From Vreelandella neptunia (GTDB taxonomy: Bacteria > Pseudomonadota > Gammaproteobacteria > Pseudomonadales > Halomonadaceae), in contig NZ_CP140255.1 of assembly GCF_034479615.1 (NCBI RefSeq), positions 4,278,001 to 4,342,000 on the forward strand: a stretch of 64,000 bases of DNA, given 5' to 3'. Position numbers and translations under genes: made by a program. The first letter of the stretch is position 1. Every line of letters starts with the position of its first letter. Positions 7,523 through 62,628 of this stretch are shown here, piece by piece. The notes under the pieces were generated by a model. That model had not been told where the DNA came from and did no database searches. It worked only from the letters and a program-made list of their open reading frames with translations.

Positions 7523-8641
7523 ATGACTCATGTCATTACTCAGGCCAATCGCCAACGCCTCGTCCTTAACCACCAGGATCATAAGTACGAATTTACTGCC
7601 TTATGGCTACGCGAACGCAGCCCCGATGATGCAACCAGAGACCCCTATACCGGCCAACGCCTGATCGAAGCTGCTGAGATACCGCTTGATTTGGCCATTG
7701 AGAGAGCCGAAGCCTCTGATGAAGAGCTAACACTGAATTTCAGTGATGGTCACAGCACTACGTTTACGCTTGCAACACTGTTTGACAAGCAGACCAGCGA
7801 TTCACCCCGGCAACTTTGGGATGCCGCGCAGGCGCCAATCTCCGAGGCCAACTTCGCCACCGCCCTTGAGGATGACTCGGCGCTGCTGGACATGCTCGAT
7901 GCGCTACATCGAAACGGCTTTGTCATCGTCTCGGGAGTGCCCGCCGATAGCGACGGCATGCAACCACTCATCGATCGCATTGGCCCGCTAAGACGCACCA
8001 ACTGGGGCGGCATCGCCGACGTCAAGTCGGTGGCCAACGCCTACGACCTGACCATGACTCAGCGCGGCTTAGAGCCCCATACCGACAACCCCTACCGGGA
8101 TCCTATTCCCGGCTATATTTGGTTGCATTGCCTGGCCAATGCCGCCGAGGGCGGCGACAGCACCTTGGCCGATGGCTTTATGGCGGCGCGCCTGCTTCGC
8201 CAGCGCGACCCAAGCGCCTACGCCTGTCTCACTCGGGTAACACCCAGCTTTCGCTATTGCGACGCCGATACCTATCTGGAAAGTGAAGGCCCTTTGATCG
8301 AGCTGGACAGCAGAGGCGAGCCCGTCCGGGTGCGCTACTCCAACCGTACCGAATACATTCCAGCGCTGCTCGCGAAAGAGTTAGAGGCTTACTATGCCGC
8401 CCGCAAAGCCTTCTATGAGTTGATCACTGGCGAAGAACTAACCCTGCACCTGAAGCTCGATCCAGGCCAGATGCTGATTATCGATAACTATCGTCTGTTG
8501 CACGGGCGCAGCGCTTTCCAACTCGCCGGCGGCGTACGCCATATGCGTCAAGGTTATGTCGATCGCGACAGCACCACCAGCCGTCGTCGCGTGCTGCAAC
8601 AGCGGCTCACCAACCCACAGAGCCAAGGAGAACCCGCATGA
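7523..8641 (+). CDS. Gamma-butyrobetaine-hydroxylase-like Fe(II)/2-oxoglutarate dioxygenase
   Basis: The start at 7523 gives 372 residues; the open frame upstream overlaps the regulator gene and is not needed. An N-terminal DUF971-like domain (FTALWLRERSPDDATRD) precedes a TauD/TfdA catalytic domain. The iron ligands are visible as H-x-D in LEPHTDNPYRDPIPGY and the distal His in YRLLHGRSAF. Relatives include gamma-butyrobetaine hydroxylase and TmpA, which hydroxylates trimethylaminoethylphosphonate. Its stop overlaps the start of the HD-domain gene by 4 bases, the same pairing as PhnY-PhnZ and TmpA-TmpB. The actual substrate is not known; a quaternary-ammonium or guanidinium zwitterion is my inference. 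Confidence 0.85.
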   Translation: MTHVITQANRQRLVLNHQDHKYEFTALWLRERSPDDATRDPYTGQRLIEAAEIPLDLAIERAEASDEELTLNFSDGHSTTFTLATLFDKQTSDSPRQLWDAAQAPISEANFATALEDDSALLDMLDALHRNGFVIVSGVPADSDGMQPLIDRIGPLRRTNWGGIADVKSVANAYDLTMTQRGLEPHTDNPYRDPIPGYIWLHCLANAAEGGDSTLADGFMAARLLRQRDPSAYACLTRVTPSFRYCDADTYLESEGPLIELDSRGEPVRVRYSNRTEYIPALLAKELEAYYAARKAFYELITGEELTLHLKLDPGQMLIIDNYRLLHGRSAFQLAGGVRHMRQGYVDRDSTTSRRRVLQQRLTNPQSQGEPA

Positions 8642-57966: not shown

Positions 57967-58731
57967 AAAGCACTCCTGTTATTGGAAAATTATTTGGGAG
58001 CAACTGCACGTGGGCTGGTGTCTGGTGCCATTTTCACCAATCATGCACACCCACATTGTATTACAGTAACACAATATGCTTCTACCGCAACTCACGCGAC
58101 TACTACCCCTCGAAGGTTGGTGTTGATGCCCTAAGTGCTTCACTGCTAGCCGTGTGGTGGGGAAGAAACCAAATTCTTTTGGTCAAGGTTCCTGAATCAT
58201 AGCTGTGGCAACCTTGCTCCAGCCCGCAAGGTCTATTTCCATTGCCAGAGAAGCTCATACTGAGGTCATCCCACTTCGCTCAAAGTCAGTGGTACCTCAA
58301 CGTTGGCTATCTCGACCACAACGTAGATTGCAGCTCCGGCATACACATCGCTTGGCATGTGGTTAAAAACTCAGTGTTTCCGGCCTGAGGTAATGGGATA
58401 GATCGCACTCTCAGCTGGGTTGATGTTCGTAGCAGGCGTGAGCCCATCTACCGTAAGCTCTAACAGCGTAACCTTTCAGCCCCCCAATATGAGGCACTAC
58501 CCCGCCTCACACTAAAAGTATGACATATACCTCGCAACATCTAATGGGGCGGGCATCGTTACGCAGTAATTGTCCACGACTCCATTTATAGGCTGAGTAA
58601 TTAGCTGTTTTGCGGGTCTCCTGATGTGGGTTTGTACTGTGTGAGCACTAAAATAGAATCGCTACTTGATGTGCATACTGCATCCTAGTGAAGCATCCTG
58701 TGCGTGTCGGATATATATAAAGGGGGATGGT
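57967..58731. other. Gene-free region with TRAP promoter and operator
   Basis: Apart from the operator at 58055 I see no gene in these 765 bases. Short frames are present on both strands but none is convincing. The stretch from about 58140 to 58640 is probably IS or gene debris. Confidence 0.4.
58055..58075. promoter_or_regulatory. GntR-type operator O2
   Basis: The 21-base imperfect palindrome has arms ATTGTA and CACAAT around TTACAGTAA. It matches O1 (49878-49898) at 18 of 21 positions. It lies 89 bases upstream of the dctP start, in the promoter region of the TRAP genes. The two sites link the transport and enzyme genes into one probable regulon of the GntR protein at 52949. Confidence 0.7.
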
Positions 58732-59175
58732 ATGAATCTCAGCGAACAAGACAATTGTGTTACCCGTATGCTGGGTGATATCGGCCTCCCTCTTGAAGTG
58801 TATGCCGATCAGGTGGCTTTCATTAGGACTGTGCGAGAAGGCTTGCCTGGCCGCGTACTCCAAAAAGCGGTAAATGCACTGCGTGGTGATCGAGATGTCT
58901 TCGTGCGACTACTAGAAACTGACTCAGGAAACCTGCATCGTTTGTACAAGCGTAAGGCCCTGGGCCGTGTTCAGAGCGAGGAAGTCCTGGATACACTGAA
59001 GCTGTATGTCCACGCCGGAAAGGTCTTCGGTGATCGCGATAGCGCCCAGGAGTGGCTGCACAGCGAGGTTCGAGCGCTGAATGGGTCTCAGCCCATCGAT
59101 CTTTTCGATACCTTCGCTGGCCGCAAAATGGTGAGGGATGTGCTGGGCAAGATTAAATTCGGGGAGTTCAGCTAA
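58732..59175 (+). CDS. Xre/MbcA/ParS-type antitoxin
   Basis: I use the ATG at 58732 with AAGGGGGAT upstream; it gives 147 residues. The protein has an N-terminal helix-turn-helix-like part (GRVLQKAVNALRGDRDVFVRLLETDSGNLHRLYKRKAL) and the C-terminal toxin-binding DUF2384 domain (HAGKVFGDRDSAQEWLHSEVRALNGSQPIDLFDTFAGRKMV). Such antitoxins neutralise RES-domain NAD-degrading toxins encoded directly after them. Here the RES gene follows in its expected place but is ruined, so the antitoxin is an orphan. Confidence 0.88.
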   Translation: MNLSEQDNCVTRMLGDIGLPLEVYADQVAFIRTVREGLPGRVLQKAVNALRGDRDVFVRLLETDSGNLHRLYKRKALGRVQSEEVLDTLKLYVHAGKVFGDRDSAQEWLHSEVRALNGSQPIDLFDTFAGRKMVRDVLGKIKFGEFS

Positions 59176-59592: not shown

Positions 59593-59796
59593 TTATTCCT
59601 CGCGACCAATTCGCCTCGATGCACGCCATTCGATGACCTCCTCCATCTCAGGGGCAGTTGAATCGCATTGGGTGAGAAGCTGATCCAGCGTGTATCTTGG
59701 TGTCTCACTGAGCGCCTCCCACTCGTCGTCCATGGGTGTGAGGAGATCCCTCTGAGAGGTAACACTGCCACGCAGCTTATTTAGTGGGGAAGTCAT
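59593..59796 (-). CDS. Small protein resembling the C-terminal half of a MazE/PemI-type antitoxin
   Basis: The 67-residue frame starts at 59796 with GAGAGGT upstream. Its second half, RYTLDQLLTQCDSTAPEMEEVIEW followed by GREE, resembles the toxin-binding tail of PemI/MazE-type antitoxins (YTLDELLAxCD). The AbrB-like DNA-binding N-terminal part is replaced by an unrelated short segment. No toxin frame follows within the 160 bases downstream. It may be a remnant or a free toxin-binding peptide. Confidence 0.4.
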   Translation of the reverse strand: MTSPLNKLRGSVTSQRDLLTPMDDEWEALSETPRYTLDQLLTQCDSTAPEMEEVIEWRASRRIGREE

Positions 59797-59959: not shown

Positions 59960-60067
59960 TCATGAATTGCGATCTTTATGCCTAGCCCACAATATGAGTA
60001 GGACTGACATCACAACGGTAATAACAATAATGCCTAGAAGGCCATAGACCTCGACAGGTATCACCAT
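59960..60067 (-). CDS. 35-residue single-helix membrane microprotein
   Basis: From the ATG at 60067 (AGGGG site seven bases upstream) the protein reads MVIPVEVYGLLGIIVITVVM, a helix continuing SVLLILWA, then RHKDRNS. A paralogue of 34 residues is encoded at 62524-62628 with the same ends (EVYG-LGII, and WAR-KDRNS). Conservation of sequence and of the basic tail between the copies is strong evidence for a real gene. It follows another microprotein gene (60119-60232) on the same strand by 51 bases. Function unknown; single-helix subunits of transporters or oxidases look like this. Confidence 0.6.
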   Translation of the reverse strand: MVIPVEVYGLLGIIVITVVMSVLLILWARHKDRNS

Positions 60068-60118
60068 ATATAAACCCCTAATTTGAGCCGAGTTTCTCAA
60101 GCTTGAGTATTGACTCGA

Positions 60119-60232
60119 TCATTGGCGAGATTTATTTCTTCGCTTAAGAGTCACATGAGCGGCAACTAATGTCCCGAACATAATAACCAAAATCGGAGAA
60201 ACACCGATTAAAAACTGCGCTAAATCACCCAT
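60119..60232 (-). CDS. 37-residue single-helix membrane microprotein
   Basis: An ATG at 60232 has GGAGG five bases upstream, an excellent site. The protein reads MGDLAQFLIGVSPILVIMFG with a helix extending to LVAAHVTL and a strongly basic tail KRRNKSRQ. It forms an apparent two-gene transcript with the microprotein at 59960-60067. I do not recognise the family. Confidence 0.55.
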   Translation of the reverse strand: MGDLAQFLIGVSPILVIMFGTLVAAHVTLKRRNKSRQ

Positions 60233-60536
60233 AACGCCTCCGCCTGCTTGCTGAATTGCTGCAACATTTCTAACTATAGCACCAAGCGGTATCACCTGCC
60301 GAGCCAGCCACATTCGTTAGGTCAATCGCTGACTTAATGTTCCAACTGACTGTGCCTGAGGAGATCGTTGTCTGTGCAATGTCAGTGATTGATCGATTCC
60401 TTACATGAGTATTTGAAGAGCACTTTATCAGCAGGAAACGCGAAGCTACTAGACCTGAAAAAACAGAGACTTCTAATATAAGTCTATTCAATCACATTTT
60501 CCATATCACTGAGTTCGAACATGTCTGTCAAGCGTT

Positions 60537-62362
60537 GAGCCTGTAGAAAAAACCCGCTGACGGCTAAGTTTTGGTAGGATCGAGAAAACAGACGAGGAGT
60601 GGTCAGCATGCCGCGCTTCAAGCCTTATAACTACGATCAAAATGCCATGGTGGTGATTAACTACCAAGATCAACTCCAACCCGGTACCTTTGAGCACGCA
60701 GTGCATTACCTGATCGAGCATAAACTCGACTTGTCCGTTTTCCACCCCAAGTACCGCAACGATGCGACCGGCCGGCTGGCCTATGATCCGGCCATCCTGC
60801 TTAAGATTATCCTGTTTGCTTACTCAAAAGGCATCACCTCCAGCCGTGAAATGCAGTGGTGCTGCGAGACCAATATTATTTTTAAAGCTCTTTCCTGCGA
60901 TACCGTTCCCCACTTCACCACACTGGCCAGCTTCGTCAGTCGCCATGCCGATGAGATTGAAGCGCTATTCGAACAAGTGCTGCTGGTGTGCCACGAACAA
61001 GGCTTGCTGGGTAACGAACTCTTTGCCATTGACGGCTGCAAGATGTCCTCCGATGCCTCTAAGGAATGGTCGGGTACGTTCAAAGAATTGGGCGAGAAAC
61101 GGGAGAAACTGAGAGGCCTGATTCGGCATCACCTACTGGAGCACTACGCGCGTGATGAAGCTGAAACGGAAGCCGACCTGGATCGGGACATTCGCCGCGC
61201 CAAGACGATTCTCTCGCTAGATGCGGCCATGAACAAAGTTGACCGTTTCCTAAAGACGCACAGCCCAAGGATGGGCCGGGGGAAGCGCATCAAGGAAGTG
61301 AAGAGCAATCTGACCGATAACGAAAGTGCCAAAATGACGACAAGCAAGGGCACGATCCAGGGCTATAACGGCGTAGCCACGGTGGATAAAAAGCACCAGA
61401 TCGTCATTGACGCTCAAGCCTTCGACGAAGGCCAGGAGCATCACACCCTGAAGCCAGTTCTGGAGCAGGTAGAAGCCCGTTTTAAGAAACTGGGCATTGC
61501 GGAAAACATCTACCAGAAAGGCACCGTCGTCACCGCGGATACAGGCTTTGCCAACGAAGCCAATATGAAGTATCTGCACGAACAGCAGATCAACGGCTAC
61601 ATCCCCGATAACCAGTTCCGCAGCCGAGATCCGAAGTTCGCCGATCAGAAAGACAAATACGGCAAGCGCCACCAGAACTTACCAGATAAAGGCTGGCGAG
61701 AGACGACGCCAGCCAGCGCGTTCCAGTTTGATCCGGTAGAACTAACGTGTATCTGCCCAACCGGCGAAAAGCTGTCCTATCGTGGGCAAGGAGAAACGGA
61801 CAATGGCAAGATCCGGGTACACTTTGAAGGGCGTTTGCTGCAATGTCGGCACTGTCCAAAGAAATACCGATGCATGCAGACCCCGAGTTCTGCCGACCAT
61901 CGCAAGGGTGCTGGTCGACAAGTGTCTTTTATTATCGAGAACAAACGCTTACCCAATTATACCGACTGGATGAAACACCGAGTTGATAGCCCGAAGGGCA
62001 AAGAAATTTACAGCCATCGTATGTCTGTCGTGGAACCCGTCTTTGGCAACATTGGCACGACGAAAAGACTGAACCGCTTCAGCCTTCGGGGTAAGAAAAA
62101 GGTGCAAGGTCAGTGGCAGCTTTACTGCTTAGTGCACAATATTGAGAAGTTAGCGAATTATGGTCATTTGGCCGCGTCATGAAGGGCTTGGAGCAGGGTA
62201 TGTCGCTTCATAAGTGAAAAATAGCTCTCTTAACTGGCATTAGGCGCGCACCTTAGCGGCTGAATGGCGATATTAGGATGACTCAGCCATATGACTGACT
62301 GAGCCAAAAGATTAAGACGACAGGCGATAGAAGTGCTCGAAATCGGGTTTTTCTACAGCCTC
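60537..62362 (+). mobile_element. IS1182 family insertion sequence
   Basis: Inverted ends GAGCCTGTAGAAAAAACCCG (left) and CGGGTTTTTCTACAGCCTC (right) bound 1.83 kb with an intact transposase. It stands between the two copies of a duplicated microprotein gene. Confidence 0.85.
60608..62182 (+). CDS. IS1182 family transposase
   Basis: The ATG at 60608 gives 524 residues with the family pattern: YDPAILLKIILFAYSKGITSSREM, LLGNELFAIDGCKMSSDASKEW (Asp), VVTADTGFANEANMKYL (Asp), the cysteine cluster LQCRHCPKKYRCMQ, and HRMSVVEPVFGNIGTTKRLNRF (Glu). It is complete and could be active. Confidence 0.93.
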   Translation: MPRFKPYNYDQNAMVVINYQDQLQPGTFEHAVHYLIEHKLDLSVFHPKYRNDATGRLAYDPAILLKIILFAYSKGITSSREMQWCCETNIIFKALSCDTVPHFTTLASFVSRHADEIEALFEQVLLVCHEQGLLGNELFAIDGCKMSSDASKEWSGTFKELGEKREKLRGLIRHHLLEHYARDEAETEADLDRDIRRAKTILSLDAAMNKVDRFLKTHSPRMGRGKRIKEVKSNLTDNESAKMTTSKGTIQGYNGVATVDKKHQIVIDAQAFDEGQEHHTLKPVLEQVEARFKKLGIAENIYQKGTVVTADTGFANEANMKYLHEQQINGYIPDNQFRSRDPKFADQKDKYGKRHQNLPDKGWRETTPASAFQFDPVELTCICPTGEKLSYRGQGETDNGKIRVHFEGRLLQCRHCPKKYRCMQTPSSADHRKGAGRQVSFIIENKRLPNYTDWMKHRVDSPKGKEIYSHRMSVVEPVFGNIGTTKRLNRFSLRGKKKVQGQWQLYCLVHNIEKLANYGHLAAS

Positions 62363-62523
62363 GTTGGACGATTTTATGTCTTCGGCACTACTAGTCATGG
62401 TGAAAAGATAACGATACATGAGCTAAATTCATGATAGCTACAGATACCGTGAAAATGGTGAGTTACCGCTGCGTTTGTTTTTGAGACTGCCTACTATACG
62501 GATGCTTAAACCACACATGCGCA

Positions 62524-62628
62524 TCATGAATTGCGATCTTTATACCTAGCCCACCAGATTAGTAGGACTGATATTATAAAAGCAGCAATAATAATACCTA
62601 GAACCCCATAAACTTCACTTGTCATCAT
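62524..62628 (-). CDS. 34-residue membrane microprotein, paralogue of 59960-60067
   Basis: The frame from ATG 62628 reads MMTSEVYGVLGIIIAAFIIS then VLLIWWARYKDRNS. It shares the first and last thirds with the microprotein at 59960-60067, and the DNA of the two is similar over about 90 bases. It lacks the neighbouring 37-residue gene. The second ATG at 62625 is an equally possible start. Confidence 0.55.
   Translation of the reverse strand: MMTSEVYGVLGIIIAAFIISVLLIWWARYKDRNS

Follow-up and report, generated by a model that had tools for sequence, protein, structure and literature searches.

In type I toxins, a single helix is commonly joined to a C terminus that carries positive charge and lies mainly in the cytosol (PMC8309996). 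For the Fst/Ldr peptides, a second account describes a signature Trp between the helix and the charged tail and, in the majority of members, a P/D/S/T-X-X-X-G helix motif (PMC7472228). We have analyzed three small frames of Vreelandella neptunia, P0001, P0002 and P0003, within a stretch of 64,000 nucleotides (the window; G000:C1:4278001–4342000) of a genome assembled as one contig of 4.95 Mb. P0003 shares the size, the predicted single helix and the basic C terminus of type I membrane toxins, but its core motif is conserved, and more strictly so than is described in PMC8309996. It also resembles the Fst/Ldr peptides in length (∼35 residues), in having one hydrophobic helix and a charged tail, and in its presence on mobile elements (PMC7472228). 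The Trp of that signature is invariant in P0001, P0002 and their relative in genome G219 (3/3), whereas P0003 has none. The helix motif is also lacking from P0003, where S-P-I-L-V-I-M-F-G places the Gly seven residues past the Pro; P0001 reads V-E-V-Y-G, and only P0002 fits, with S-E-V-Y-G at the edge of the helix. The Pfam models of Ldr (PF13940) and Fst (PF13955) have no match in the window, their best matches elsewhere fall below the cut-off (E 0.027 and 0.27, respectively), and neither is among the Pfam matches of the P0003 family. We do not assign these peptides to Fst/Ldr.

Three small frames around an insertion sequence

The original prediction had described two paralogous frames and a third frame of 37 residues with a strong ribosome site, all encoding single-helix proteins. 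On translation, all three are present as described, on the minus strand (Table 1); their single helices agree with hydropathy and, for P0003, with the predicted structure, and GGAGG stands four bases upstream of the P0003 ATG. The KDRNS end ascribed to the paralogues is correct, but EVYG, described as their start, lies only near it (residues 6–9 of P0001 and 5–8 of P0002).

Table 1. Features of the locus, in window coordinates
Feature	Position	Strand	Description
Xre/MbcA/ParS-type antitoxin, outer neighbour	58666..59175	+	PF09722 above cut-off
ChpS-like protein	59593..59796	-	67 aa; NCBIfam NF008463 24.3 bits, cut-off 101
P0001	59960..60067	-	35 aa; predicted single helix, Trp, then basic tail WARHKDRNS
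P0003	60119..60232	-	37 aa; predicted single-helix protein, family founder, GGAGG site
Promoter-like site upstream of P0003	60273..60302	-	TCGGCA-18-TATAGT, TG before second hexamer; consensus match only
Insertion sequence between P0001 and P0002	60537..62362	+	18-bp inverted ends, 89% complementary
P0002	62524..62628	-	34 aa; ends KDRNS; paralogue of P0001 across the insertion sequence
Promoter-like site upstream of P0002	62658..62687	-	TTGCCA-18-TATATT; consensus match only

Read along the minus strand, the order is P0002, the insertion sequence, P0003, P0001 and the ChpS-like gene, with P0001 beginning 51 bp past the stop codon of P0003. Promoter-like sites of the P0003 type number 3 in the stretch against 1.8 expected, and those of the P0002 type 8 against 5.4. 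The ChpS-like protein is apparently a MazE-type antitoxin reduced to its C-terminal part, and the outer neighbour scores 82.5 bits with NF049845 (cut-off 90). Toward and past the window edge lie genes of 169, 794 and 1092 residues, the last XerC-like, together with a 423-residue phage-type integrase.

The insertion sequence is bounded by inverted ends at 60537–60554 and 62345–62362, and its transposase (60599–62182) has DUF772 and DDE_Tnp_1/1_6 as its only Pfam domains; like the original prediction, we take it to be an IS1182 element. A profile search (locus L031) found no remnant of P0003 upstream of P0002, and no insertion-free version of the site was found, the likeness to genome G198 stopping at window base 60400. 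We read the stretch as a probable piece of a mobile island. It seems to have carried a short row of genes for small membrane proteins, each standing on its own, in the inferred original order P0002–P0003–P0001, before the insertion sequence interrupted the row.

Coding evidence for P0003 and for the P0001/P0002 pair

A profile search of 275 Halomonadaceae genomes places the P0003 family at 25 full-length sites in 21 of them, leaving out a 26th match of only 12 residues (G142). Four matches of a separate search, in long frames (L022–L025; E ∼0.003, TRAP-transporter-like by eye), were also dropped. Named relatives are from Vreelandella and Halomonas (14 loci), and a second relative is present in the same genome (G000:C1:3548605–3548715), in a region of the exonuclease type described below. 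Among 390 genomes sampled evenly across the order, matches were found in three, all of the same genus and including the genome studied here, with none outside Halomonadaceae. That most genomes lack the gene counts against the family evidence.

Members share a G-x-x-P-I core, mostly in the form F-x-x-G-x-S-P-I-L-x-x-M, and a basic tail. M1, F7, G10, S12, P13, I14, L15 and M18 are common to all 17 rows of our alignment (A1), a count that flatters the family because the alignment leaves out the off-core G198 member L028, with other residues at L15 and M18 (as well as L008, nearly identical to L027), and because members found later in G217 and G194 have changed F7 and S12. Gly10, Pro13 and Ile14 are kept in every member read. 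The G194 copy has ATA at the position where other members start. In 22 of the 25 regions (not in L074, L076 and L077), an automatic scan detected the member's frame as hydrophobic, with ATG or GTG and a motif for a ribosome site, and the pairwise likeness of L045 and L046 drops off at the stop codon. AlphaFold2 predicts P0003 to be a single helix spanning residues 3–36 (mean pLDDT 84, pTM 0.40).

Selection was assessed by a neutral simulation, in which the observed transitions and transversions were placed at random and stop-free outcomes were kept. Four close pairs of the family gave P values of 0.016, 0.014, 0.0004 and 0.021 on identity, and their pooled differences fall 13/8/39 on the three codon positions. 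dN is smaller than dS in 30 of the 31 pairs with usable dS, pairs which share sequences; 140 of the 171 pairs were saturated or undefined. The family matches and the simulation rule out a chance open reading frame, and P0003 is almost certainly a real protein-coding gene.

The 17 aligned members gave weak matches only in Pfam and PHROGs. The helix of three of them weakly matches DUF7248 (PF23906; best E 0.00097), and the two matches with bit scores shown fall below its cut-off of 27 bits (17.8 and 13.3). When P0003 and four relatives were compared with NCBIfam, one relative (L012) barely passed the LPXTG_anchor model (16.1 versus 15.9 bits, E 0.014), which we read as generic likeness of a helix plus a basic tail. 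P0003 as a single query had no match in PADLOC. A viral origin was rejected, as 28 pattern-fitting stretches in IMG/VR yielded no confirmed case and phage records hold no relative of P0003 by tblastn. In PLSDB, no gene of its own is annotated at the frame in Halomonas sp. KO116 (NZ_CP011054) and Halomonas sp. KG2 (CP098529), a gap that is at most suggestive because the PLSDB tables are incomplete. Among the matches listed in a literature search, with coverage mostly excluding subscription papers, there is no description of the family. The P0003 family is newly seen, but of a known kind.

The claim that P0001 and P0002 are paralogues holds: a search of the 4.95 Mb assembly matched exactly two places, with E values of 1.7e-17 and 2.7e-9, so that their likeness is beyond chance. 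At the DNA level (75% over 129 columns), it extends from base 2 of the P0001 frame to 21 bases past the stop codon and is thus essentially limited to the frame. The further claim, that the divergence of the pair implies selection, is a weak argument. Over 30 codons from EVYG, 18 of 90 bases differ, giving 6 synonymous and 9 nonsynonymous codons; the dN/dS calculation that had been proposed as a check gives 0.39 (dN 0.17, dS 0.45), but neutral identity is not rejected (P=0.16; 0.016 for the BLOSUM score). The corresponding P values for P0001 and its G219 relative, 0.35 and 0.13, contribute little more. The search for relatives, also proposed, shows the pair to be narrow but not confined to this genome. 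A P0002 query matches 2 of the 275 family genomes, and a profile of P0001, P0002 and the G219 relative finds full-length copies in 82 genus genomes only here (two) and in G219 (one); in G198 a remnant of just 12 residues survives, and seven further partial hits, all weak (E 0.0005–0.07), were left out of the count.

Three full-length copies, a truncated fourth and the neutral identity values would all suit an older duplicated stretch drifting under little constraint, with P0003 as the sole real gene. The flanks of the G219 copy, at 88% over 315 bp, are also no less conserved than its frame. However, the likeness between the paralogues ends where the frame ends, the changes are more conservative than neutral by BLOSUM score (P 0.016 and 0.012, uncorrected for several tests), and all three sequences retain EVYG, L11-G-I-I14, W27 and K-D-R. 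We consider it unlikely, though far from negligible, that both frames are nonfunctional; a function for them is plausible. Comparison of the pair with the P0003 family by hhalign gave a probability of 50% and an E value of 1.7e-4 (one comparison), over 18 tail columns only. P0003 appears to found a family separate from the pair, and is not a demonstrable paralogue of it. The strong evidence of selection and the wide occurrence belong to P0003, which the original prediction had treated as a side remark, not to P0001 and P0002.

Genomic settings and neighbouring genes

Regions of 6–19 kb were compared at all 25 places and at one place with P0001 only, an earlier round having taken in the first 20 loci. 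Most settings of the P0003 family are mobile DNA of several kinds in Halomonadaceae. Members are present on two complete plasmids (NZ_CP011054 and CP098529) and on a contig of 6.1 kb that also carries a Rep3 plasmid initiator gene; transposase pieces are the sole mobile mark in L045 and L075, and no mobile-element mark was noted in the compared regions of L034, L039, L074, L076 and L077. A trio of recombinase genes occurs in six of the 25 regions (two near-identical pairs and two more). These genes, of 169, 794 and 1092 residues (the 1092-residue product is XerC-like, and no family was matched by the other two), were seen in L031, L042, L043, L046, L078 and L079, five of which also have genes of 101 and 106 residues; the set in L031 (7593–14462) corresponds to window positions from 63592 onward and runs past the window edge. 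Distant plasmid relatives of the set share 22–29% identity among the matches listed, and several are annotated as integrases.

In L044 (G224:C1:2058000-2075000), the P0003-family gene (8431–8544) is flanked by the tniQ and tnsA genes of a transposon. The region encodes, between 1038 and 12429, TnsA, a Mu-type transposase, TniB, TniQ, a 701-residue protein containing Csy2, and Csy3, the last with a match above the family cut-off. We take the element to be a type I-F CRISPR-associated transposon, with the Mu-type transposase and TniB in the positions of TnsB and TnsC. A 24-nt sequence occurs there twice without change, 60 bases apart (1038–1061 and 1098–1121), and the two copies presumably resemble a minimal type I-F array.

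A ChpS-like gene adjoins the P0003-family gene in four of the 25 regions, with probable remnants in two more by eye. It was rejected as an obligate partner, as a P0003-family gene is next to it at only four of the nine places where it occurs in 82 genomes.

The start codons of three members of the family overlap the stop codon (as ATGA) of a gene encoding a two-helix protein of 72–89 residues. This gene has eight homologues in the 275 genomes and, by eye, a one-helix ORF with a basic tail comes next in all but one (L099). Four of these seven ORFs are not among the P0003 profile matches (L100, L101, L102 and L103); a further ORF of this type lies downstream in L102. Such coupling, together with the recurrence of the one-helix ORF and a conserved core that implies a specific contact, would suit a small peptide that serves a membrane protein as accessory subunit or as regulator better than a toxin. 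The peptide's partner would be the two-helix protein in one branch, and a host or element complex elsewhere. The coupled gene makes this case nearly as good as that for toxin-like action; only three of the 25 places coincide with the eight two-helix places, however, and the settings vary widely. We hold the subunit as a tentative alternative with a real chance of being correct.

A different neighbour, an accessory DEDDh exonuclease gene, follows the P0003-family gene in six of the 25 regions, ∼330 bases on in five; in L040 the gap and the exonuclease are both shortened. Within the gap downstream of the peptide gene, a conserved stretch of ∼120 bases, predicted to fold strongly, lies in a part that is ∼90% identical in five sequences (L037 9235–9356, L032 7422–7538, L035 1115–1234, L036 8632–8752 and L038 3655–3773). 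Over columns 300–420, RNAalifold gives −26.0 with a z score of −4.8 on the coding strand and −0.6 on the other, and over the longer columns 286–490 both strands score (z −3.0 and −2.6). As five sequences at ∼90% identity are too few, a conserved structure is unproven. The folding region was not found in the other loci compared or in the window.

GhoT and GhoS constitute a type V pair, in which a small membrane peptide is matched with a Cas2-like nuclease. The exonuclease branch of the P0003 family likewise places a predicted small membrane peptide near a nuclease gene; in a reading of this type the peptide would be a membrane toxin, and the exonuclease, with a putative structured RNA lying between the two, would control the toxin mRNA. 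We think this very improbable. The nuclease is of the DEDDh type rather than Cas2-like, the expression link is hypothetical, none was noted beside P0003 in the window, the strand specificity of the fold is lost over the longer stretch, and only five of the 17 close exonuclease places (E <1e-50) adjoin one of the 25 peptide places (L110, L114 and one further place were judged by the P0003 profile matches, with no peptide there). As a more distant relative occurs in 251 of the 275 genomes, the exonuclease was also rejected as an obligate partner. In L117, L118 and L119, the accessory exonuclease is in frame with a part resembling a tyrosine integrase by eye (604–637 residues between stops), an arrangement that suggests a possible tie to island integration.

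Proposed action at the membrane

Positively charged tails of membrane proteins stay cytoplasmic (the positive-inside rule), and the basic tails of the P0003 family therefore suggest an N-out/C-in orientation. We propose that the peptide may enter the inner membrane as a single helix, leaving its basic tail on the cytoplasmic side, and that this helix would pack via its conserved G-x-S-P-I-L face. At higher dose it may disturb the membrane in the manner of a type I toxin, an effect that would stabilise or guard the element carrying it. P0001/P0002 could represent another peptide of this type, more recent in origin.

The antisense RNA of a type I system was sought in the window without success: the leaders are not unusually folded (z −0.9 to +0.8), complementarity of the start regions to their surroundings is at chance level, and Rfam returned nothing at E up to 1. 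Weak antisense promoter-like sites occur at the same place in both paralogues (60004–60031 and 62568–62595); the codons that contain them are conserved, and promoter-like sites are about as frequent as expected by chance. Toxin-like action is also opposed by the strictness of the core motif, by the coupling to the two-helix protein in three regions, by the ATA start position of the G194 copy, and by the changed tail and core of one G198 copy. The case that these element-borne inner-membrane peptides work like type I toxins is moderate; we infer their function, and give this mechanism a probability of about 0.4.

A broader reading makes the P0003 family a general cargo module of Halomonadaceae mobile DNA, a membrane-active guardian peptide whose partner (P0001, the ChpS-like protein, the DEDDh exonuclease with its structured RNA, or the coupled two-helix protein) is swapped between elements. 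It is improbable but, if true, would amount to a new class of membrane system, with several interchangeable partners, for addiction or against invaders, present even on a type I-F CRISPR-associated transposon. P0003, a gene of 37 codons with strong evidence of selection, matched no dedicated family in the scans of Pfam, NCBIfam and PHROGs, yet its relatives turn up repeatedly on plasmids, on recombinase islands and on a transposon guided by CRISPR. Should the peptide prove to be a subunit, it would indicate a small membrane complex common to unrelated elements; if it serves in maintenance or defence, it would help to explain the persistence of such elements.
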